DNA of 64,000 bases from a bacterium (GTDB lineage: Bacteria > Pseudomonadota > Gammaproteobacteria > Pseudomonadales > Moraxellaceae). Position numbers and translations under genes: made by a program. This document shows positions 30,150 through 38,605 of the stretch, one piece after another (position 1 is the stretch's first letter; each line of letters starts with the position of its first letter). The notes under the pieces are model-generated. The model worked only from the letters and a program-made list of their open reading frames with translations, was not told the DNA's origin and did not search any database. The stretch is from contig JAQSDB010000002.1 in assembly GCA_029945725.1 (NCBI GenBank), positions 310,001-374,000 on the forward strand. Direction: 5' to 3'.

Positions 30150-30309
30150 TCCGCCACTGGGGTCATTTTTTTTACCGACGGTCGTCATGCCGGCGGTGGT
30201 TGTTGCAGTTTTGTATGCTCTGACGGTATGGTCGGGGCCTGATTTTTTCGGATTATTCCGAGTGGTCTTGTCGGTCTGCGGACGAAGTTGGTCGCGCAAG
30301 AAAGTCGAA

Positions 30310-30362
30310 GATCCACAAGCCTGTCGTTTTTATAAACGGCAGGCTTGTGGGTCTTTTTTTTT
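30310..30362 (+). terminator. Strong rho-independent terminator or leader hairpin before the GTPase operon
   Basis: Nineteen-pair arms (GATCCACAAGCCTGTCGTT and AACGGCAGGCTTGTGGGTC, with two G-U pairs) enclose a short AT loop and are followed by ten Ts. It ends about 20 bases before the start of the next gene, leaving no room for a promoter in between. It may be the terminator of the response regulator gene, an attenuator, or both. Confidence 0.88.
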
Positions 30363-30383
30363 GGCCAAAAAAAGAGGTGTGTG

Positions 30384-31430
30384 TTGGCCGATGTATTTCA
30401 AACGGAATTGCGGGTCGCGATAAGGATATTTGATGGCCGGGAGCAAAAGCATCTCAGCCAGATTCTGTCCATGTCCAGCAAGCGCAGTGAGGTATCCGTG
30501 CTTTCTGTTCCGGCCGCCACGGCAGACGTTATTTTCATCAGGCATGATGAGCCGGGGGCATCGGTATTTCTGCAGCCGGGCAGGCAGGGAAAACGGCCAA
30601 TCGCCGTGCTTTATGGTGATGAGAAGGATAATCACGCCTGGTTTTTGCGCCGGCCTGCCACCAGTACGGATCTGATTCCTCTGCTCAAGTCATTACAGGC
30701 GGCGGTTGGTGCCTTGCCTTCGCAGGCTCTCCTGCCAGTGGATAATGTGTCAGGGGTGGCAAGCGTGCAGCCGCTGCCTGCAGAAAAAATGCTGGCGGCA
30801 ACGCCCATCGTGCCAACCATTACCGGGCAGTCCTTGCTGGAAAGATTGAAGGTTTGTCTGGAAACCGGCCGTGTTCTTTCTGTTCAGCTCGATATGAACA
30901 GCTATCTGGTTATTGATGGCAAAAAGAAAACAGTCTTCGTGCCGTCGCGCTATATGGAAATGCAGCAAACGCTGCTTGATGTGCTCGTCATGTTCAGGGC
31001 ATCCGACTATGTCGAGCTCAGTGATGGCGAGCTTGCGCGCTTGCTGGAGCATGCGCAGATGTCATCCCTTCCGCTGGAGCAGTTCACGTGGGTGGCCTGC
31101 CACCACGTTGAGCCGCAACTCCCCATTCCCGAATCGATTGCCAATCTGGCATTCATGCTTACGCGCTGGCCCAGCTTCACGCGGCTTCGTTACAAGCCTG
31201 TTCACATGCAGTGGGCGGGGCGGCTGGTCAAGACCGCTAGCAGCATGAGTAATCTGACGCTGGGCGTAGTGGACGACATGATTGATGCCGCCAAATTCTA
31301 CAACGCCTGTGTGGTCGGTGGCCTGGTCATGGTTGATGTTGGCATCACGGTAGCGGCTGCAACGAACCCAGGCTCCCGGAGTGAAAAGAAAGGTGTTTTC
31401 CAGAGGATTTTGCAGAGGCTCAAGAAATAA
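30384..31430 (+). CDS. Uncharacterised protein, first gene of the GTPase/roadblock/globin operon
   Basis: I do not recognise a family. Starts at GTG 30381 or TTG 30384 follow AGAGG at 30373-30377; an ATG at 30471 has no such box. The TTG start gives 348 residues. The N-terminal half (to about 105) looks like a small alpha/beta domain ending GKRPIAVLYGDEKDNHAWFLRRP. A linker of about 40 residues follows. The C-terminal half has conserved-looking MEMQQTLLDVLVMFRASDYV, LPLEQFTWVACHHVEPQLPI and FMLTRWPSFTRLRYKP. No membrane segment or catalytic motif is obvious. It lies three bases before the GTPase gene, so an adaptor or effector of that GTPase is a reasonable guess. Confidence 0.75.
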   Translation: MADVFQTELRVAIRIFDGREQKHLSQILSMSSKRSEVSVLSVPAATADVIFIRHDEPGASVFLQPGRQGKRPIAVLYGDEKDNHAWFLRRPATSTDLIPLLKSLQAAVGALPSQALLPVDNVSGVASVQPLPAEKMLAATPIVPTITGQSLLERLKVCLETGRVLSVQLDMNSYLVIDGKKKTVFVPSRYMEMQQTLLDVLVMFRASDYVELSDGELARLLEHAQMSSLPLEQFTWVACHHVEPQLPIPESIANLAFMLTRWPSFTRLRYKPVHMQWAGRLVKTASSMSNLTLGVVDDMIDAAKFYNACVVGGLVMVDVGITVAAATNPGSRSEKKGVFQRILQRLKK

Positions 31431-31433
31431 GCC

Positions 31434-31955
31434 ATGGCAGAAATAAAAATAGTGATAACCGGAGCCGTTGGTTCCGGCAAGACGACCGCCATTCAGGCTA
31501 TTTCAGAAATTCCCGTCATTGCGACCGAAGTGGATGCCTCGGACGAGGTTCGTGAACAAAAGGAAACCACTACCGTTGCCATGGATTACGGCGAACTGTC
31601 GCTGGATGACGGCAATGTCCTGAAAATATACGGCACGCCAGGACAAAAGCGTTTTTCGTTCATGTGGGAAATTCTGGCAGAAGGCGCGCTCGGTTTCGTG
31701 ATTCTGGTAAATAACCAGCGCAGCAGTCCACTGGATGACCTTGCCATGTATCTGGAGAACTTTGAGATTTATATCAAGGAATCAACAGTGGTGGTGGGCG
31801 TCACCCATGTGGATGAAGAGCAGTGTGGAATGGAGAAATACCACGACTACATGATTAATCAAGGTTTGAGTTATCCGATTTTCCCCATTGATGCGCGTAG
31901 CCCGTCAGACGTGAAAGTCATGATTGAGGCTATGGCCGCCATGATGAATGGCTGA
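31434..31955 (+). CDS. Small GTPase of the MglA/conservon-like group
   Basis: It is a single-domain P-loop GTPase of 173 residues. The P-loop is GAVGSGKTT (residues 10-18). Switch II is KIYGTPGQKRFSFMW (64-78), where the usual DxxG Asp is replaced, as in the YGTPGQ/FGTPGQ type seen in actinobacterial conservon GTPases. The base-recognition motif appears as VGVTHVDE (near 121-128) instead of NKxD, and switch I region TTTVAMDYGE is near 45. Two Roadblock/LC7 proteins follow, and such proteins commonly act as GTPase regulators (MglB-MglA). The role in polarity, motility or stress signalling is inferred, not seen. Confidence 0.88.
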   Translation: MAEIKIVITGAVGSGKTTAIQAISEIPVIATEVDASDEVREQKETTTVAMDYGELSLDDGNVLKIYGTPGQKRFSFMWEILAEGALGFVILVNNQRSSPLDDLAMYLENFEIYIKESTVVVGVTHVDEEQCGMEKYHDYMINQGLSYPIFPIDARSPSDVKVMIEAMAAMMNG

Positions 31956-31963
31956 GAAATAAC

Positions 31964-32356
31964 ATGTCCATAGAAAGAATAAAGCTCGTACTCCAGACCC
32001 GCCTGGAAGAACTCGTGAATGAGGGTGGTCAGGTTGAAGCAGCGCTGGCGGTAACCACGGATGGTCACATGGTGGCAAGTGCCCAGCGCAAGGAATATTC
32101 CCTCAAGCGGCTCGCTGCCATGGGCAGCACCTTGATGTCTCTTGGAGACACCATTACCAAGGAGCTTCAGATGGGATCGTGCAAGAACATCATTTCTGAA
32201 AACGAAGACGGAATCGTGGTGTTCATGCATATCACAAAGAATCTTGTCATGGTGTCGCTGACATCATCGCGCGGTGGCCTCGGGCTTCTTCTCAGCTCCA
32301 GTCGAAACTGCATCGGTAGCATCATTCAGGATATAAAAAACCAAAACACTGTTTAA
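31964..32356 (+). CDS. Roadblock/LC7 domain protein 1
   Basis: This 130-residue protein covers one Roadblock/LC7 fold. An N-terminal helix (RIKLVLQTRLEELVNEGGQV) leads into the strand-turn AALAVTTDGHMVAS, then a helix LKRLAAMGSTLMSLGDTI, and the last strands GIVVFMHI and NLVMVSLTSSRGGLG. Family members dimerise and bind Ras-like GTPases as activators or scaffolds. It is eight bases after the GTPase gene. Confidence 0.85.
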   Translation: MSIERIKLVLQTRLEELVNEGGQVEAALAVTTDGHMVASAQRKEYSLKRLAAMGSTLMSLGDTITKELQMGSCKNIISENEDGIVVFMHITKNLVMVSLTSSRGGLGLLLSSSRNCIGSIIQDIKNQNTV

Positions 32357-32376: not shown

Positions 32377-32784
32377 ATGGCAAATCTTAATGATGTCTGC
32401 AAGGAAGTCTTGTCTGAAGTTGACGGCGCTGTGGGTTGTGCAGTGGTTGATCTTAATAACGGCCTCATGCTGGCCAGCGCCCACAATGTGCCGTATTTCT
32501 CGCAAACCTACATTGATGCCGTGGCGGCAGCGGCGGTTGAAATGTTTCGTGGCAAGAATATTTCGGCCGTGGAAAAGCTGCTGGCTGCCCAGCGAGGCCA
32601 TGCGGTTGAAAAATCCATGCAAGAAGTCCAGATGACCACGGCTGGTACCTATCACTTCATGTCGGTGGTGCCAGGCAAGACGGACAGCCTGATGGTGCTC
32701 ATCACCACGCGCAAGGCCAATCTCGGTATGGGCTGGGCCGCTCTGCGCCGCGCCATGGTCACTGCCGCGCCGATGTGCCCGTAA
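32377..32784 (+). CDS. Roadblock/LC7-like protein 2
   Basis: It has 135 residues and the same predicted fold as its neighbour, but only distant sequence similarity. Visible parts are GCAVVDLNNGLMLASAHN, a helix IDAVAAAAVEMFRGKNISAVEKL (given here in part) and strands YHFMSVVPG and SLMVLITTRKANLGMG. GGAG precedes the ATG. Two unlike Roadblock proteins next to one GTPase suggest a heterodimeric regulator. A hairpin follows its stop. Confidence 0.78.
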   Translation: MANLNDVCKEVLSEVDGAVGCAVVDLNNGLMLASAHNVPYFSQTYIDAVAAAAVEMFRGKNISAVEKLLAAQRGHAVEKSMQEVQMTTAGTYHFMSVVPGKTDSLMVLITTRKANLGMGWAALRRAMVTAAPMCP

Positions 32785-32794
32785 TATAAAAGGC

Positions 32795-32822
32795 TGCGTG
32801 CGCGCAGGCGCACGCACTTTTT
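32795..32822 (+). terminator. Terminator-like hairpin abutting the next start codon
   Basis: Perfect 9-bp arms TGCGTGCGC/GCGCACGCA with a GCAG loop are followed by CTTTTT, and the ATG of the next gene begins at the next base. The hairpin occupies the place where a ribosome-binding site should be, so it could lower both read-through and translation of the downstream pair. Confidence 0.75.
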
Positions 32823-34343
32823 ATGGAAACCCGGATTGCCGGCACGATCGGCCCTGCAGTATGTATTACCGAAGCCGACGTTGATGCCGTTCTGTCCTGC
32901 CCGATTGTTATCGGACAGGACAGCGAGTTCCGAGGCAAGGTATCCACACGTCTTTTTGCCAATGACCGGCATGTTCTTAAGCTGAAATCAGGATTTGCCC
33001 TGGCTGAAAAAAGCGCACAACGCTGGTGCCAGATCCAGCTTGAGCGGGAGCGCCTGTTTGGCATCTATCCGCCCCACCGTCACTGGGTTGTGCTCGTGCA
33101 GCCCGAAGGCTGTGCCGTGGCCAATATATCGCTCAGGGGTATTACCCTTGAGGCTACGCTAACCGAGCCCGGGATCAGCACTGATACTGAAGTTGTGACA
33201 GCGCTGATGTCAGGGTTCTTTGCCTGTTATTTCACGTTCTGGAAGCGACACGGTTTGCGCCAGGACGAAGGACTCACCAATTACATTGTTGAATCTGGCC
33301 ATATCTATTACATCGATGACGACATTTATTCCCACGACAATATGCTCTCGTTTGCACATTCACTCTGCGGCATATTGCGGCGTCTTGATTATCTGGATAA
33401 AGCCCAGGTAGCGGCCATCGCGCAACATCTGCGTGCCGAGTTGCTTGTCATTGGCAGCATGATGCCGGCTGTGCTGGCGGAACAATTACGCGATGTCTTT
33501 CTGCCGCCCGATGGCGCGGTGCTGCGGCATGAAATCATCAGTGTGCTGGAGCAGTCCGGCGAGCGCTCGCATGCCGGTTGCCATGACCGGGTTGCCATCC
33601 TTGCTGATATTCACGGCAACCTGCCGGCGCTGCAGGCAGTCCTGGCCAGCATGAAGGAGCAGGGGCTTGAGCATGCCATTGTGCTGGGTGACATCGTTGG
33701 TTACGGCCCCTTTCCCGGAGAGTGCGTGGATTTGCTCAGCACGCGTCCGTGGATATTCTTGCGCGGAAATCATGATCATGCCGCCGCCATGGGCGAGGCC
33801 GGCCCCGGTTTCAGTTTTGCAGCGCGCTGGTCGACGCCATGGACGGTGAGTGTGCTGTCGGCCGGCCAGCGTCAATGGCTGGGCCAGTTGCCGCTGATCT
33901 GGCGTGAAGACGGCTTGTGTGCGGTGCATGGTGCTCCCGTCGATCCCACTTTTTTCAACGGCTATGTGTACGCCGGCACATCGGAACGCAATCTGGATGC
34001 CATGGTGGAAAAAAACATGTTCCTGTGTTTTCACGGCCACAGTCACATGGCCGGGTGCTTTCACCGTAACCGCACCGGCATGGATGAGCGGCTGAGCACG
34101 ACCACCATCAGCATTGACAGCAAGTCACGCTATCTCATTTGTCCCGGTTCCGTGGGTCAGCCGCGTGACGGCTGCCTCGCGGCACAGTACGCCATCTACG
34201 ACAAACGAAAAAACAGCGTTGAATTCAAACGGGTCGACTACGACAGGAAACCCCTGGGTATGGCCATAGTGCAGCACGGCTTTCCCGAATTCATTGCCAG
34301 GCAGTTTCAGATTGAACCAGTTGATCAGGGAGAGTGGACATGA
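32823..34343 (+). CDS. Fusion of a kinase-like domain and a calcineurin-like phosphoesterase
   Basis: It has 506 residues. The N-terminal half resembles a protein- or small-molecule kinase fold: a Lys in HVLKLK (near 53-55), Glu in ERERLFG (near 74-76), a catalytic-loop-like QDEGLTN with Asp148 and Asn153 at the canonical five-residue spacing, and an Asp cluster YYIDDD at 165-167, about where DFG falls. The C-terminal half is a metallophosphoesterase of the YfcE/MJ0936 type: ILADIHGN (Asp262, His264), VLGDIVGYGP (Asp290), RGNHDHA (Asn316, His317), HGAP and FHGHSHM. Having kinase-like and phosphatase domains in one chain suggests opposing or coupled activities. No Shine-Dalgarno is visible; a hairpin touches the ATG. 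Confidence 0.8.
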   Translation: METRIAGTIGPAVCITEADVDAVLSCPIVIGQDSEFRGKVSTRLFANDRHVLKLKSGFALAEKSAQRWCQIQLERERLFGIYPPHRHWVVLVQPEGCAVANISLRGITLEATLTEPGISTDTEVVTALMSGFFACYFTFWKRHGLRQDEGLTNYIVESGHIYYIDDDIYSHDNMLSFAHSLCGILRRLDYLDKAQVAAIAQHLRAELLVIGSMMPAVLAEQLRDVFLPPDGAVLRHEIISVLEQSGERSHAGCHDRVAILADIHGNLPALQAVLASMKEQGLEHAIVLGDIVGYGPFPGECVDLLSTRPWIFLRGNHDHAAAMGEAGPGFSFAARWSTPWTVSVLSAGQRQWLGQLPLIWREDGLCAVHGAPVDPTFFNGYVYAGTSERNLDAMVEKNMFLCFHGHSHMAGCFHRNRTGMDERLSTTTISIDSKSRYLICPGSVGQPRDGCLAAQYAIYDKRKNSVEFKRVDYDRKPLGMAIVQHGFPEFIARQFQIEPVDQGEWT

Positions 34344-35269
34344 CGCAGACAGATAATGTGATCAGGGAGTCGGTCGAACGCATACGCAAGAACATCGACC
34401 GCTTTGCCGGTACTTTCTATCAGACACTCTATGAAAAAGCGCCGGATTTGCGTCGCTTGTTCACCAGCCCCGAGCTGGAGCGCCGCAAGCTAGGCGCCAT
34501 GCTGGCCACGCTGTCGCATATTCGTGACTGGGAAAAGATCGAGCCGGCCATACGCAAGCTGGGTGAACGTCATGTCGGTTATGGCGTGCAGGTCGAGCAT
34601 TATCCGAGTCTGAAAGAGGCTTTTCTGGCTGCGGTGGAAGCGGTGGACGCCGAGCAGTCTCGTCACAGTTTTCCTGCCTGGCAAACACTGCTGGCGCTGG
34701 TGATTGCCACCATGACCGAGCGCCTGACCACGCCGAAGTTGCCGCCTGTGCTGCTCAGTGAGCTGCTTGCCCCGGTATTGCCGGCCGGCACGCACACGCT
34801 GTTTGCCGAAGTGGGCGGTTATGACGTTGTCGAGCGGGTGCACCAGCGTTTTTACGACAGCATCTTTGCCGAGGCATGGCTGGGCGGTTTTTTTGCCACC
34901 AAGAGCCAGCAGTCGCTTGTACTCAAGCAAACCCGCTTCATGGTCGCCGCCTTTGGCGGCCCGGACGAATACCGCTGGGAGAGTCCTGCGCTGGCGCACA
35001 TGCACATGATGGTCACCGATGAGCAGGCGGATATACGCGAGATCCTGCTGCGTAATGCCATCCGTGCCGAAGGCTTGTCGCAGGATATTGAAGACCGCTG
35101 GCTGGCCACGGATCAGGCTTTCCGCCCGGCCATAGTCAAGCAGAGCGATGCCGAGTGCGTGATCCGTTGTCCCGGGCAAATGGCCGTGGTGGTGAAAAAG
35201 CCCATCGGTTACCGGCCGCCAGTACTGCTGGCGCGGTGCACGGCAGGTGAAGATGTGCTGGCCGTGTGA
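34340..35269 (+). CDS. Protein with two tandem globin domains
   Basis: From ATG 34340 (AGGGAGAG box) it has 309 residues. The first domain (about 5-140) looks like a bacterial single-domain or flavohaem-type globin: FYQTLYEKAPDLRRLF with CD1 Phe41, and LGERHVGYGV with proximal His78. The second (about 150-265) looks like a truncated haemoglobin: LFAEVGGYDVVERVHQRFYD, an FGGP turn and AHMHMMVT with His220 as probable proximal ligand. A tail of about 45 residues follows. No reductase or output domain is present. It overlaps the phosphoesterase gene by four bases, so it is part of the operon. O2, NO or redox sensing is inferred. Confidence 0.8.
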   Translation: MTQTDNVIRESVERIRKNIDRFAGTFYQTLYEKAPDLRRLFTSPELERRKLGAMLATLSHIRDWEKIEPAIRKLGERHVGYGVQVEHYPSLKEAFLAAVEAVDAEQSRHSFPAWQTLLALVIATMTERLTTPKLPPVLLSELLAPVLPAGTHTLFAEVGGYDVVERVHQRFYDSIFAEAWLGGFFATKSQQSLVLKQTRFMVAAFGGPDEYRWESPALAHMHMMVTDEQADIREILLRNAIRAEGLSQDIEDRWLATDQAFRPAIVKQSDAECVIRCPGQMAVVVKKPIGYRPPVLLARCTAGEDVLAV

Positions 35270-35358: not shown

Positions 35359-35973
35359 ATGAAGTCCAGCAATGTAGTGTGGCAACCAGTGGCCGTTACC
35401 AAGGCGCAGCGCGAGCAGCGCAACGGCTATCGCGCCGCCACCCTCTGGTTTACCGGCTTCTCCGGTTCCGGCAAGTCCACCCTGTCTTATGCGGTGGAAG
35501 AGCGTCTCTTTGCCATGGGCTGCAACACCTATGTCTTTGACGGCGACAATATCCGTCACGGCCTGTGCCGGGATCTGGGTTTTTCCGACACCGACCGCAC
35601 AGAGAACATCCGCCGCATCGGCGAGGTGGCCAAGCTGACCAACCAGGCCGGCGTGATCGCGCTGACCGCCTTCATTTCGCCCTTCCGCAAAGACCGCGAT
35701 CTGGTGCGTGCTTCCATGCCGGAAGGCGACTTCATCGAGATTTTTGTCCAGTGCTCACTGGAAGAGTGCGAGCGGCGTGATGTGAAGGGGCTCTACAAGA
35801 AGGCGAGGGCGGGCGAAATCACCGCCTTCACCGGCATCTCTTCCCCGTATGAGCCACCGCTTGCCCCCGAGCTGGTGGTCGACACCGAGTCCAGCAGCTA
35901 TGCCGACGGCGTGAACCGCATCATCGATTTCCTCTGCCAGCGCGGTATTCTTCCTCCCAGTGCCCGGGCCTGA
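35359..35973 (+). CDS. cysC: Adenylyl-sulfate kinase
   Basis: CysC phosphorylates APS to PAPS, the second step of sulfate activation. The 204-residue protein has P-loop GFSGSGKST (near residue 33), [17 protein letters not shown], the [14 protein letters not shown] helix, [13 protein letters not shown] and [13 protein letters not shown]. It complements the cysD and cysN genes 12 kb upstream, where CysN has no kinase fusion. It could also supply PAPS for sulfation, but no sulfotransferase is seen in the neighbouring polysaccharide locus. Confidence 0.96.
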
Positions 35974-36041
35974 ATGCCCGTCCGGCCTGCGTTCATGGTG
36001 CGCCCAGGGGCTTGTCGTTCAGTCTTCCCCCTGCGCTGCGG

Positions 36042-36070
36042 TAACGAAAACCCCCTGATTTTGCTATAGT
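36042..36070 (+). promoter_or_regulatory. Candidate promoter of the polysaccharide locus
   Basis: An extended -10 element TGCTATAGT (hexamer TATAGT at 36065-36070) is preceded at 17 bases by a weak -35 (TAACGA). It lies 50 bases before the first sugar dehydrogenase gene and points towards it. Confidence 0.45.
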
Positions 36071-36119
36071 CCGCCGCCTGATCGGCAGCAGCCACTTCAT
36101 CCCAAGGGACGCTTTTACA

Positions 36120-37415
36120 ATGTCTGATATCTCCACCAGGACCGTGGCCGTAGTGGGCCTTGGTTATGTCGGTTTGCCCCTGGCACTGGCCTTTGGCCGC
36201 AAGCTCAACACCATCGGTTTTGACATCAGCGAAGCCAAGCTCGGCGCCTACCGCTCGGGCGTTGACCCCACCGGAGAAATGGAGGCCGAGCGGTTTCAGC
36301 AGGCCAGCCGCATCCGCTTTACCAGCAATGCCGCCGACCTGGCTCAGGCAGATTTCATTGTGGTGGCCGTGCCCACGCCGATTGATAGCGCCAAGATTCC
36401 TGATCTTTCGCCGGTGGAAGGTGCCACCCGCGCCATCGCGCCTTACCTCAAGCCCGGCGCCATCATTGTTTATGAATCCACGGTTTATCCCGGCGTTACC
36501 GACGATGTGTGCGGCCCCCTGCTGGAAAAGGTTTCCGGCAAAAAGCGCGGTGTCGATTTCAAACTCGGTTATTCGCCGGAGCGCATCAATCCCGGCGACA
36601 AGGAACACCGCCTGGAAAACATCACCAAGATTGTGGCCGGTGAGGATGCCGAAACCCTGGAGCAGGTCGCCGCGCTCTACGGCACCGTGGTAGAGGCGGG
36701 CGTGTACCGCGCCTCCAGCATCAAGGTGGCCGAAGCCGCCAAGGTGATCGAGAACACCCAGCGCGATGTGAATATTGCCCTCATCAACGAGCTCGCCCTG
36801 ATTTTTCACCGCATGGGTATTGATACCCGCGAAGTGCTGGAAGCGGCCGGCACCAAGTGGAACTTTCTTAAATTTTCGCCCGGTCTTGTCGGCGGCCATT
36901 GCATTGGTGTCGATCCCTACTACCTCACGCACAAAGCCGTTGAGCTGGGTTATCACCCTGAAGTGATTCTCGCCGGCCGCCGCATCAACGATGGCATGGG
37001 CGCCTATATTGCCCAGAAGACCATCAAGCTCATGGTCAGGAATGGCGCGCTCGTAAAAGGTGCCACGGTGCTGGTGATGGGGTTGACCTTCAAGGAAAAC
37101 TGCGCCGATGTGCGCAACAGCAAGGTCATCGACATCATTCGCGAACTGCAGGATTACGGCGCCAAGGTGGTGGTGTGGGACCCGGTGGTCGATGCCGAAG
37201 AAGCACTGCATGAATACGGCGTTACGCTGTCCGACTGGCAAGGCGAAAAAGATATTGCCGGCGTGGTGGCCGCGGTCAGCCACAAGCAGATTCTGGGGCT
37301 TGATCTCGATGCGCTCGCCAGTCGCTGCCAGCCAGGCGCGCCTTTCATGGATGTGAAATCGGTCTTTGATCGCCAGGCCGTCACACAAAAAGGCTTCAAT
37401 CTCTGGCGGCTGTGA
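36120..37415 (+). CDS. UDP-N-acetylhexosamine 6-dehydrogenase (TviB/WbpO type)
   Basis: It oxidises a UDP-HexNAc to the uronic acid using NAD. The 431 residues contain the Rossmann motif VVGLGYVGLPLALAFG, VAVPTPID, YESTVYPGVTDDVC, SPERINPGD, the catalytic Cys in GLVGGHCIGVDPYYL and GLTFKENCADVRNS. The HCIGVDPYYL form and strong TviB likeness favour UDP-GlcNAc/GalNAc over UDP-glucose. The next gene is a matching C4 epimerase, as in wbpO-wbpP and tviB-tviC pairs, so the end product is probably UDP-GalNAcA. Confidence 0.92.
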   Translation: MSDISTRTVAVVGLGYVGLPLALAFGRKLNTIGFDISEAKLGAYRSGVDPTGEMEAERFQQASRIRFTSNAADLAQADFIVVAVPTPIDSAKIPDLSPVEGATRAIAPYLKPGAIIVYESTVYPGVTDDVCGPLLEKVSGKKRGVDFKLGYSPERINPGDKEHRLENITKIVAGEDAETLEQVAALYGTVVEAGVYRASSIKVAEAAKVIENTQRDVNIALINELALIFHRMGIDTREVLEAAGTKWNFLKFSPGLVGGHCIGVDPYYLTHKAVELGYHPEVILAGRRINDGMGAYIAQKTIKLMVRNGALVKGATVLVMGLTFKENCADVRNSKVIDIIRELQDYGAKVVVWDPVVDAEEALHEYGVTLSDWQGEKDIAGVVAAVSHKQILGLDLDALASRCQPGAPFMDVKSVFDRQAVTQKGFNLWRL

Positions 37416-37432
37416 TCGCCCATTCCATATTT

Positions 37433-37459
37433 GTCATCCCCGCGAAAGCGGGGATCCAG
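37433..37459. repeat. Compact family B palindromic repeat
   Basis: GTCATCCCCGCGAAAGCGGG then GATCCAG is a short hairpin, inverse to the copy at 22515-22542. It sits in the 149-base gap between the dehydrogenase and epimerase genes. Confidence 0.8.
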
Positions 37460-37564
37460 CGCCTTGATGTGGTTCGCGTATTTTTGTGAGAAAAAATACG
37501 AATCAGTCGGACCTTTTTAGTGCGTGACCAGCGTGTCTGGCTGAATTTCAAATGGATATAAAAG

Positions 37565-38605
37565 ATGAGTGTGTATCAAGAGCGACTGGAGCAACTCAAG
37601 CAGCAGCCACACGTATGGCTAATCACCGGTGTCGCTGGCTTTATCGGCTCCAATTTACTCGAAACCCTATTGCAGCTCGGCCAGAAAGTGGTGGGCCTTG
37701 ATAACTTTGCGACGGGGCATCAGCGCAATCTGGATGAAGTGCAGTCAATGGTAAGCCCGGAACAGTGGGCCAGCTTCCATTTCATCAAGGGCGATATCCG
37801 CCATCTTGAAGACTGCCGCGCCGCCATGCGCTTTTCCGAATCTGCCCCCGTTGACTATGTCTTGCATCAGGCTGCCCTTGGCTCCGTTCCCCGCTCCATC
37901 AATGACCCTATCACCAGCAATGCCACCAATATCGACGGCTTTCTCAACATGCTGGTGGCCGCGCGTGATGCCGGGGTGAAAAGTTTTACCTATGCCGCCA
38001 GCAGCTCCACCTACGGCGATCATCCCGGCCTGCCCAAAGTGGAAGACATTATCGGCAAGCCGCTTTCGCCCTATGCCGTCACCAAATACGTGAACGAGCT
38101 TTATGCGGATGCGTTCGCGCGCTGCTACGGCTTCAACACCATCGGCCTGCGTTACTTCAATGTATTCGGCAAGCGCCAGGACCCGGATGGCGCCTATGCG
38201 GCCGTTATTCCCAAATGGACCGCCGGCATGATCAAGGGCGAAGACGTATTCATTAATGGCGATGGCGAAACCAGCCGCGATTTCTGTTTCATAGAAAATA
38301 CCGTGCAGGCCAACCTGCTCGCGGCCACGGCAACAGACGAGTCTGCCCGCAACCAGGTGTACAACGTAGCCGTCAGTGGCCGCACCACGCTCAATACCTT
38401 GTTCGAGCAGATCAAGCTGGCACTGGCCAGCAACGGCATCGGGTATGAAAAAAGCCCGGTGTACCGGGATTTCCGGGCCGGCGATGTGCGGCACTCACAA
38501 GCGGATATCAGCAAGATAAAAAACATGCTGGGGTATTCCCCTGCGTATGACATCAAGAATGGTATTGCCAGAGCAATGCCCTGGTATGTCGGGTTTCTGA
38601 AATAA
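37565..38605 (+). CDS. UDP-N-acetylhexosamine C4-epimerase (WbpP/TviC type)
   Basis: It is an extended short-chain dehydrogenase of 346 residues. The NAD loop is [17 protein letters not shown] (near residue 20), with [19 protein letters not shown] following. The catalytic Ser/Tyr/Lys set is in [15 protein letters not shown] and [22 protein letters not shown] with a Ser in that loop is typical of epimerases that accept N-acetylated sugars. It probably acts with the upstream dehydrogenase to make UDP-GalNAc or UDP-GalNAcA. Confidence 0.92.

Follow-up and report, generated by a model that had tools for sequence, protein, structure and literature searches.

A two-domain globin joining an F-type globin to a truncated haemoglobin is encoded beside a small-GTPase-Roadblock gene set

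Globins tied to Roadblock/LC7 domains and chains with several globin domains have both been described, as have bacterial circuits in which a small GTPase is encoded with Roadblock proteins. HGbRL of Methylacidiphilum infernorum (PDB 3wfw/3wfx) joins a single F globin of the Hell's Gate globin I (HGbI) kind, with Lys E10 and His F8 as well as Tyr B10 and Gln E7, to a Roadblock/LC7 domain, and its authors propose signalling through movement of the globin and a sensor role (excerpt of PMC4476040). Several globin domains per chain occur in algae, namely in an 837-amino-acid (aa) protein of Chlamydomonas and in Guillardia theta, where all globin domains are of the 3/3 type and six reside in two proteins of more than 1000 aa (excerpts of PMC1457004 and PMC4101818). 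Standalone truncated haemoglobins (trHbs) are reported from iron oxidisers in the excerpt of PMC3770913, which does not mention a fusion of an F globin with a trHb. Here we analyse a 64,000-nucleotide stretch of contig JAQSDB010000002.1 (positions 310,001 to 374,000, forward strand; assembly GCA_029945725.1, family Moraxellaceae), hereafter the window, to which all unprefixed positions refer. It encodes a 309-aa protein, termed diglobin, in which an F-type globin is joined to a group I trHb, and whose gene adjoins a set of genes for a Ras-like GTPase, two Roadblock-type proteins and a putative kinase/phosphatase. Among the matches listed in a literature search of titles and abstract openings, in which subscription journals are thinly covered, there was neither an F-globin/trHb fusion nor a diglobin beside a GTPase operon. 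Multi-globin algal chains and a globin-Roadblock fusion are already known; the joining of an F globin to a trHb and the tie to a GTPase operon appear to be new.

The diglobin gene (34340..35269, + strand; 309 codons and a stop, with an ATG start) is delineated by its open frame, Pfam matches, alignment, an AlphaFold2 model and structure comparison. The chain consists of an F-type 3-over-3 globin (residues ~1-130), a linker, a group I trHb (152-273) and a conserved tail (~254-292). The first-pass annotation had proposed that two different globin domains share this chain, and profile searches with each half bear it out: Globin PF00042 matches residues 30-125 (E 2.8e-7; 31.5 bits against a cut-off of 22) and Bac_globin PF01152 residues 153-255 (E 1.5e-11; 44.9 bits against 21), each half carrying a proximal His. 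When 44 diglobins were scanned individually at E<=0.001, Bac_globin was detected in 44/44 and Globin in 43/44. The structure prediction, made for the protein alone from an input alignment of the 44 diglobins, has a mean predicted local distance difference test (pLDDT) score of 88.8 and a predicted template modelling score of 0.83, and it displays separate 3-over-3 and 2-over-2 folds. Residues 1-127 of the model resemble HGbI (Z 18.1, root-mean-square deviation [rmsd] 1.9 over 127) and residues 153-273 a group I trHb (Z 18.1, rmsd 1.1 over 116), as judged against the PDB from the lists of the VIA structure comparison, here and for the kinase-fold domain below, outside which further families may also be similar.

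The N-terminal half (residues 1-134; 34340..34741, +) carries Tyr27 B10, Phe41 CD1, Glu47 E7, Lys50 E10, Leu51 E11 and His78 F8. Single-domain F globins are its closest fold, and its profile finds HGbI (3s1i) as top PDB match with HGbRL next, in line with the proposal of a flavohaem-type globin devoid of its reductase. The half thus shares the 3-over-3 fold, the profile match and the proximal His with the HGbI kind, whereas the distal pair of that kind, Tyr B10 with Gln E7, is replaced in the window protein by Tyr B10 with Glu E7. The C-terminal half with its tail (residues 150-309; 34787..35266, +) carries Tyr172 B10, Phe185, Gln197 E11 and His220 F8, followed by Cys273 and Gln280 in the tail; its top profile matches are trHbs of the Mycobacterium tuberculosis HbN type, and by fold, proximal His, Tyr B10 and Gln E11 it is a group I trHb. 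It differs from HbN and its like (PDB 1idr/5ab8) in sitting behind an F globin and in the invariant tail Cys and Gln. The positions first assigned to Phe41, His78, the FGGP turn (205-208) and His220 proved correct.

Neither a flavohaemoglobin nor a globin-coupled sensor of the HemAT type describes this chain. No FAD/NAD reductase match was found in it, the flavohaemoglobin model NF009805 covering residues 3-114 only (40 bits against a cut-off of 432), and the Pfam scan returned Globin and Bac_globin with no transmitter; Protoglobin stayed below its cut-off (14.5 against 25 bits). Unlike in HGbRL, the same scan detected no Roadblock domain within the chain, the Roadblock proteins being products of neighbouring genes. 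A chance or artefactual reading frame is ruled out by 42 homologues in named genomes and by both Pfam cut-offs being passed. A role as a defence system was also considered and set aside: PADLOC gave no match to diglobin and weak ones within the operon (GTPase, E 0.005; Rbl1, E 0.006).

Across the alignment of 44 diglobins (L093 being omitted as the same gene as P0002, and the derived alignments A4 and A5 holding 40 of the 44 rows), the predicted haem-ligand residues are invariant. In the N half, His78, Arg77 and Lys50 are present in 44/44, B10 is Tyr in 28, Phe in 15 and Ile in one, and CD1 is Phe in 39, Leu in three and Met in two. The distal positions deviate from those of single-domain F globins, which mostly have Gln E7 and Leu E11: E7 is Leu in 34 diglobins, Arg in seven, and Gln, Ile and, in the window protein, Glu in one each, and E11 is Phe in 42 and Leu in two, the window protein among the latter. 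In F-globin domains of related genomes that served as controls (n=17), by comparison, Gln E7 occurs in 13, Leu E11 in 15 and Lys E10 in 13, two of these domains possibly being out of register at E10. On this alignment the marks of the diglobin N half are Phe at E11 and the loss of Gln E7; Lys E10 is not special, since most control F globins share it. The near-complete loss of Gln E7 (retained in 1/44, against 13/17 controls) counts against plain O2 storage by the N half. In the C half, Tyr172, Phe185, Gln197 and His220 are each found in 44/44, as are Trp254, Lys267, Cys273 and Gln280 of the tail, while the nearest standalone trHbs have the tail Cys in 5/23 and the tail Gln in 0/23. Diglobins resemble one another more in the C half, with a mean identity of 55%, than in the N half, with 37%.

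Upstream of diglobin, and on the same strand with tight spacing, lie four genes that recur in this order in another genome of the same genus (G005). The first encodes a small Ras-like GTPase of 173 aa (31434..31955, +) with a P-loop, a TT..D.G switch and a TPGQ motif; in an alignment of ten GTPases the P-loop glycines and lysine and G-x-PGQ are retained in 10/10 and TPGQ in nine. It is followed by Rbl1 (31964..32356, +; 130 aa), a Roadblock/LC7 protein with profile matches to cvnB5 and MglB in the PDB, and by Rbl2 (32377..32784, +; 135 aa), whose profile finds MglC first in the PDB (E 1.7e-4). No Pfam family matches Rbl2, which reaches 70% probability in a profile-profile comparison with Rbl1, and we assign it with moderate confidence, judging from these profiles, as a divergent Roadblock protein. 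The fourth gene (32823..34343, +) encodes a 506-aa protein with a kinase-fold domain (~1-245) and a calcineurin-like metallophosphatase domain (256-460), and the gene ends 4 bp into the diglobin reading frame, overlapping its ATG. With a small GTPase and Roadblock partner genes, the operon is of the MglA/MglB type, like the MglA/MglB/MglC system of Myxococcus and the actinobacterial conservons (Cvn); the excerpts of PMC13343842 and PMC10329633 mention neither a diglobin nor a kinase/phosphatase as partner of these, and the conservons differ in having a histidine kinase and CvnC. The first-pass annotation had held that the protein lacks an output domain, which stands for the chain itself and not for the operon; there, the GTPase, the two Roadblock proteins and the kinase/phosphatase protein are likely partners.

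With Rbl2 as the marker for the GTPase circuit, we asked how often diglobin and the circuit share a genome. Rbl2 (at least 56% identity) lies within the fetched flank of 14 of the 42 named diglobin loci, accompanied by a relative of the GTPase in 11 and of the 506-aa protein in 13. A whole-genome search of 26 further diglobin genomes located Rbl2 (at least 53% identity) elsewhere in 22, with a 506-aa relative within 1.5 kb of it in 16 and a GTPase in 12. In total, 36 of the 40 diglobin genomes tested contain Rbl2, a count that leaves out L109 and L123, the latter showing a GTPase and a Roadblock relative in the diglobin flank, where Rbl2 is absent. Against this stands a background, at E<=1e-20, of 14/390 genomes in the order sample, the window's included, and 34/398 in the phylum sample. 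Within the phylum sample Rbl2 is present in 14/15 diglobin genomes and 20/383 others (Fisher p 9e-16, uncorrected for kinship, with the contig-cut diglobin of G846 counted among the others, and too small because most of these genomes belong to one family).

The fusion had been called rare, and it is so in the window's relatives: diglobin was found in 2/249 genomes of the family, the window genome and one of the same genus, two further matches spanning the trHb only, and a match spanning both halves in 1/390 genomes of the order. The phylum sample (398 genomes) contains 15, of which the 14 besides the window genome belong to two families outside its class, and a sixteenth (G846) that is cut at a contig end. 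A contig scan of named genomes gave no match with the window protein P0001 as sole query; with the diglobin alignment it gave 47 loci, 42 spanning both halves in the genomes of 42 different records and five trHb only, several of them being the same contigs as in G-numbered genomes. Because its patterns represent the trHb half, the scan would overlook fusions whose trHb has diverged. By record title, the hosts include Mariprofundaceae and Ghiorsea (Zetaproteobacteria), Thiomargarita, Candidatus Venteria and other Thiotrichales, Methylococcales including Methyloprofundus, Chromatiales, Marinobacterium, a Nitrospira metagenome-assembled genome (MAG), strain 005FR1 and the 'Moraxellaceae' MAG UBA8513. 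A restriction to iron oxidisers was dropped, as sulphur oxidisers, methanotrophs and others also carry diglobin. Mariprofundaceae, Ghiorsea, Thiomargarita and Methyloprofundus are organisms of oxygen gradients.

In an unrooted tree of 85 trHb domains, built from 41 of 42 trHb-only and 44 of 46 diglobin open reading frames (ORFs) after length and duplicate filters, the 44 diglobins lie on one side of a branch with support 100/99; a second unrooted tree, built from 62 F-globin domains, likewise places the 46 diglobin rows on one side of a branch, with support 97/98, both trees being drawn from short sequences and the F-globin tree in particular carrying long-branch warnings. As drawn, standalone trHbs of Zetaproteobacteria and others lie closest to the C half among the sequences outside the diglobins. 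Since the diglobins are one-sided in the tree of each half, their history fits a single fusion event.

Taken together, we marginally favour diglobin as a soluble two-domain globin that would bind haem and act as the input through which a bacterial small-GTPase circuit senses a gas or the redox state. This reading draws on the identity of both halves as globins with a proximal His in 44/44, on the loss of the distal Gln E7 in the N half, on the 4-bp overlap with the GTPase-Rbl1-Rbl2-kinase/phosphatase set and its repeated order in G005, on the excess of Rbl2 in diglobin genomes over the order background, and on the precedents of HGbRL, of a ferredoxin-trHb protein beside a second GTPase-Roadblock system and of a trHb-PAS-MCP protein (see below). 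As a plausible mechanism, the trHb site, whose Tyr B10 and Gln E11 would suit O2 or NO, and possibly also the N-terminal globin, would bind a ligand or change its redox state, and the two-globin unit would take on another shape, the conserved Cys/Gln tail being part of the interface. Diglobin could thereby contact Rbl1, Rbl2 or the kinase/phosphatase protein differently, which could in turn alter the on/off state of the GTPase. The inputs of small-GTPase-Roadblock circuits are poorly understood, according to the conservon abstract (excerpt of PMC13343842); in Gammaproteobacteria, in Zetaproteobacteria and in one Nitrospira MAG, a two-globin protein co-occurs with such a circuit and offers a testable candidate. 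A bolder extension, which we regard as doubtful, is that diglobins form a family of two-haem receptors among bacteria living at low oxygen. A single chain would weigh one haem signal against another, such as O2 sensed by the trHb against NO or the redox state sensed by the Lys/His N globin, and would pass the outcome to a Ras-like GTPase-Roadblock circuit equipped with its own kinase-phosphatase protein. If true, this would amount to a globin-coupled G-protein system, a distinct class of bacterial gas sensing.

Several results weigh against an input role. Rbl2 is missing from the fetched flank of 28 of the 42 named diglobin loci, some of these flanks being short, and linkage as a rule was therefore dropped; four of the 26 further diglobin genomes gave no Rbl2 match in the whole-genome search. 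Conversely, Rbl2 occurs without diglobin in 13 of 14 order genomes and 20 of 34 phylum-sample genomes. In eight such genomes, with 12-13 kb fetched from each, GTPase, Rbl2 and a 506-aa relative occur together in five (the last split into two frames in L201 and reduced to the N domain in L204, the other three having poor ORF tables), and none of the eight stretches around Rbl2 revealed a globin ORF. The GTPase circuit is older or wider than diglobin, which is an add-on and not essential, because the GTPase-Roadblock-kinase/phosphatase set also exists without it. Distances between diglobins correlate weakly with those between Rbl2 proteins (36 genomes, Spearman 0.13, 136/2000 permutations as high), and co-divergence of the two was set aside. 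A shared habitat could be an alternative cause of the co-occurrence. In the N half, the loss of Tyr B10 and Phe CD1 in G005 suggests that its N globin may be haem-free; long N-half branches lead to G005, L131, L127 and the window clade in the F-globin tree; and Lys E10 was dropped as proof of an HGbRL-like Lys-His ligation in view of the control F globins.

Diglobin might also be an enzyme or carrier, such as an NO dioxygenase, a peroxidase or an O2 buffer whose globins exchange electrons or ligand, the GTPase genes adjoining it through a shared low-oxygen life. We consider this rather unlikely, even though the invariant Tyr B10/Gln E11 pair of the trHb recurs in M. tuberculosis HbN, which acts as an NO dioxygenase, Rbl2 is so often outside the flank, and a complete trHb with its own ferredoxin and reductase adjoins diglobin in one Methylococcales contig (L123). 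The diglobin chain itself lacks a reductase, the N globin has lost Gln E7 in 43/44 and has Phe at E11 in 42/44, and NO detoxification does not predict co-occurrence with one particular Roadblock protein in 36/40 genomes. A one-haem sensor, in which the trHb half alone binds haem and the N globin is a docking domain devoid of haem, comparable to the haem-free globin of Bacillus RsbR (excerpt of PMC4476040), can coexist with the input reading and would account for the lower conservation of the N half, its long branches and the residues lost in G005. We hold it unlikely, given that His78 and Arg77 are invariant in 44/44, that B10 is Tyr or Phe in 43/44 and that CD1 is Phe in 39/44. That diglobin is instead an output, with the GTPase circuit governing its activity or placement, accords with its position as last gene of the operon and with the many Rbl2 genomes of the order that have no diglobin (13/14). 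It appears improbable in that globins tied to signalling modules elsewhere are inputs, HGbRL being a proposed sensor (excerpt of PMC4476040), and in that a trHb-PAS-MCP protein is encoded in the same genus.

The kinase-fold domain of the 506-aa protein (32823-33587) has no Pfam match at E<=1 and no PDB sequence match at E<=0.1. Its relatives were collected from 32 scanned sources, which gave 15 distinct rows, five of the sources yielding no usable start; the alignment took 14 of the 15 rows, one with an unknown residue being left out. The kinase motifs K53, E76, D148, N153 (Asp-x4-Asn), D165 and D166 are invariant in 14/14. The model of this domain (pLDDT 90.9) has PknG as its top Foldseek match (E 2.2e-4), and VIA lists an Arabidopsis KEOPS-complex chain first (Z 11.3, rmsd 4.2 over 183), with PRPK and Bud32 behind it. 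By motifs and model, the domain has a protein-kinase-like fold and is a putative kinase, and this uncharacterised kinase-fold/metallophosphatase protein is a frequent member of the GTPase circuit.

Globins also stand beside signalling or reductase modules in other arrangements. Elsewhere in the window's family, two genera (G027, and G020 from tblastn and the ORF table) have a GTPase-Roadblock operon of a second type, in which a ferredoxin-trHb protein accompanies a fusion of an ABC ATPase with a dual-specificity phosphatase. Systems of this second type lie at L025:3878-11151, L026 and L209:5673-9798; in L025, a histidine kinase and a response regulator, recognised by eye, follow. Strain 005FR1 has both types of GTPase-Roadblock system, the second with its ferredoxin-trHb, and a diglobin elsewhere. 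In L123 (Methylococcales RS_11_22), a complete ferredoxin-FAD/NAD reductase (FNR)-trHb fusion of 533 aa (L123:4831-6432) directly follows diglobin, and, compared by eye, the ferredoxin-trHb of L025 may be the same kind of protein after decay of its reductase. In the window's genus, trHbs lie within ORFs of ~680-710 aa in two genomes: a 679-aa ORF (L024:3909-5948, G007) has an N-terminal trHb-PAS-MCP arrangement, that is, a chemoreceptor of the trHb type and not of the HemAT type, and a 707-aa ORF with a trHb (L029, G001) appears similar. Another two-globin make-up is a 577-aa chain with two tandem F-type globins followed by pentapeptide repeats (L033:637-2370, - strand, G615). In the 837-aa protein of Chlamydomonas, both globin domains are reportedly 2/2.

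The first gene of the window operon, U361 (30345..31430, +), has no Pfam match at E<=0.01 and has a relative with 25% identity at the equivalent place in G005. A terminator-like hairpin, identified by consensus match, with a 20-bp stem and a T run (30308..30355, +) separates a response regulator gene from the operon; because position 30345 falls within this hairpin, the real U361 start is probably downstream. Between rbl2 and the 506-aa gene, a 9-bp hairpin followed by CTTTTTATGG at 32795-32816 is a possible attenuator. Directly downstream of diglobin, the region 35359-38605 encodes an APS kinase (Pfam) together with, judging by eye from the translated sequences, a nucleotide-sugar dehydrogenase and an epimerase, and may open a polysaccharide gene cluster.

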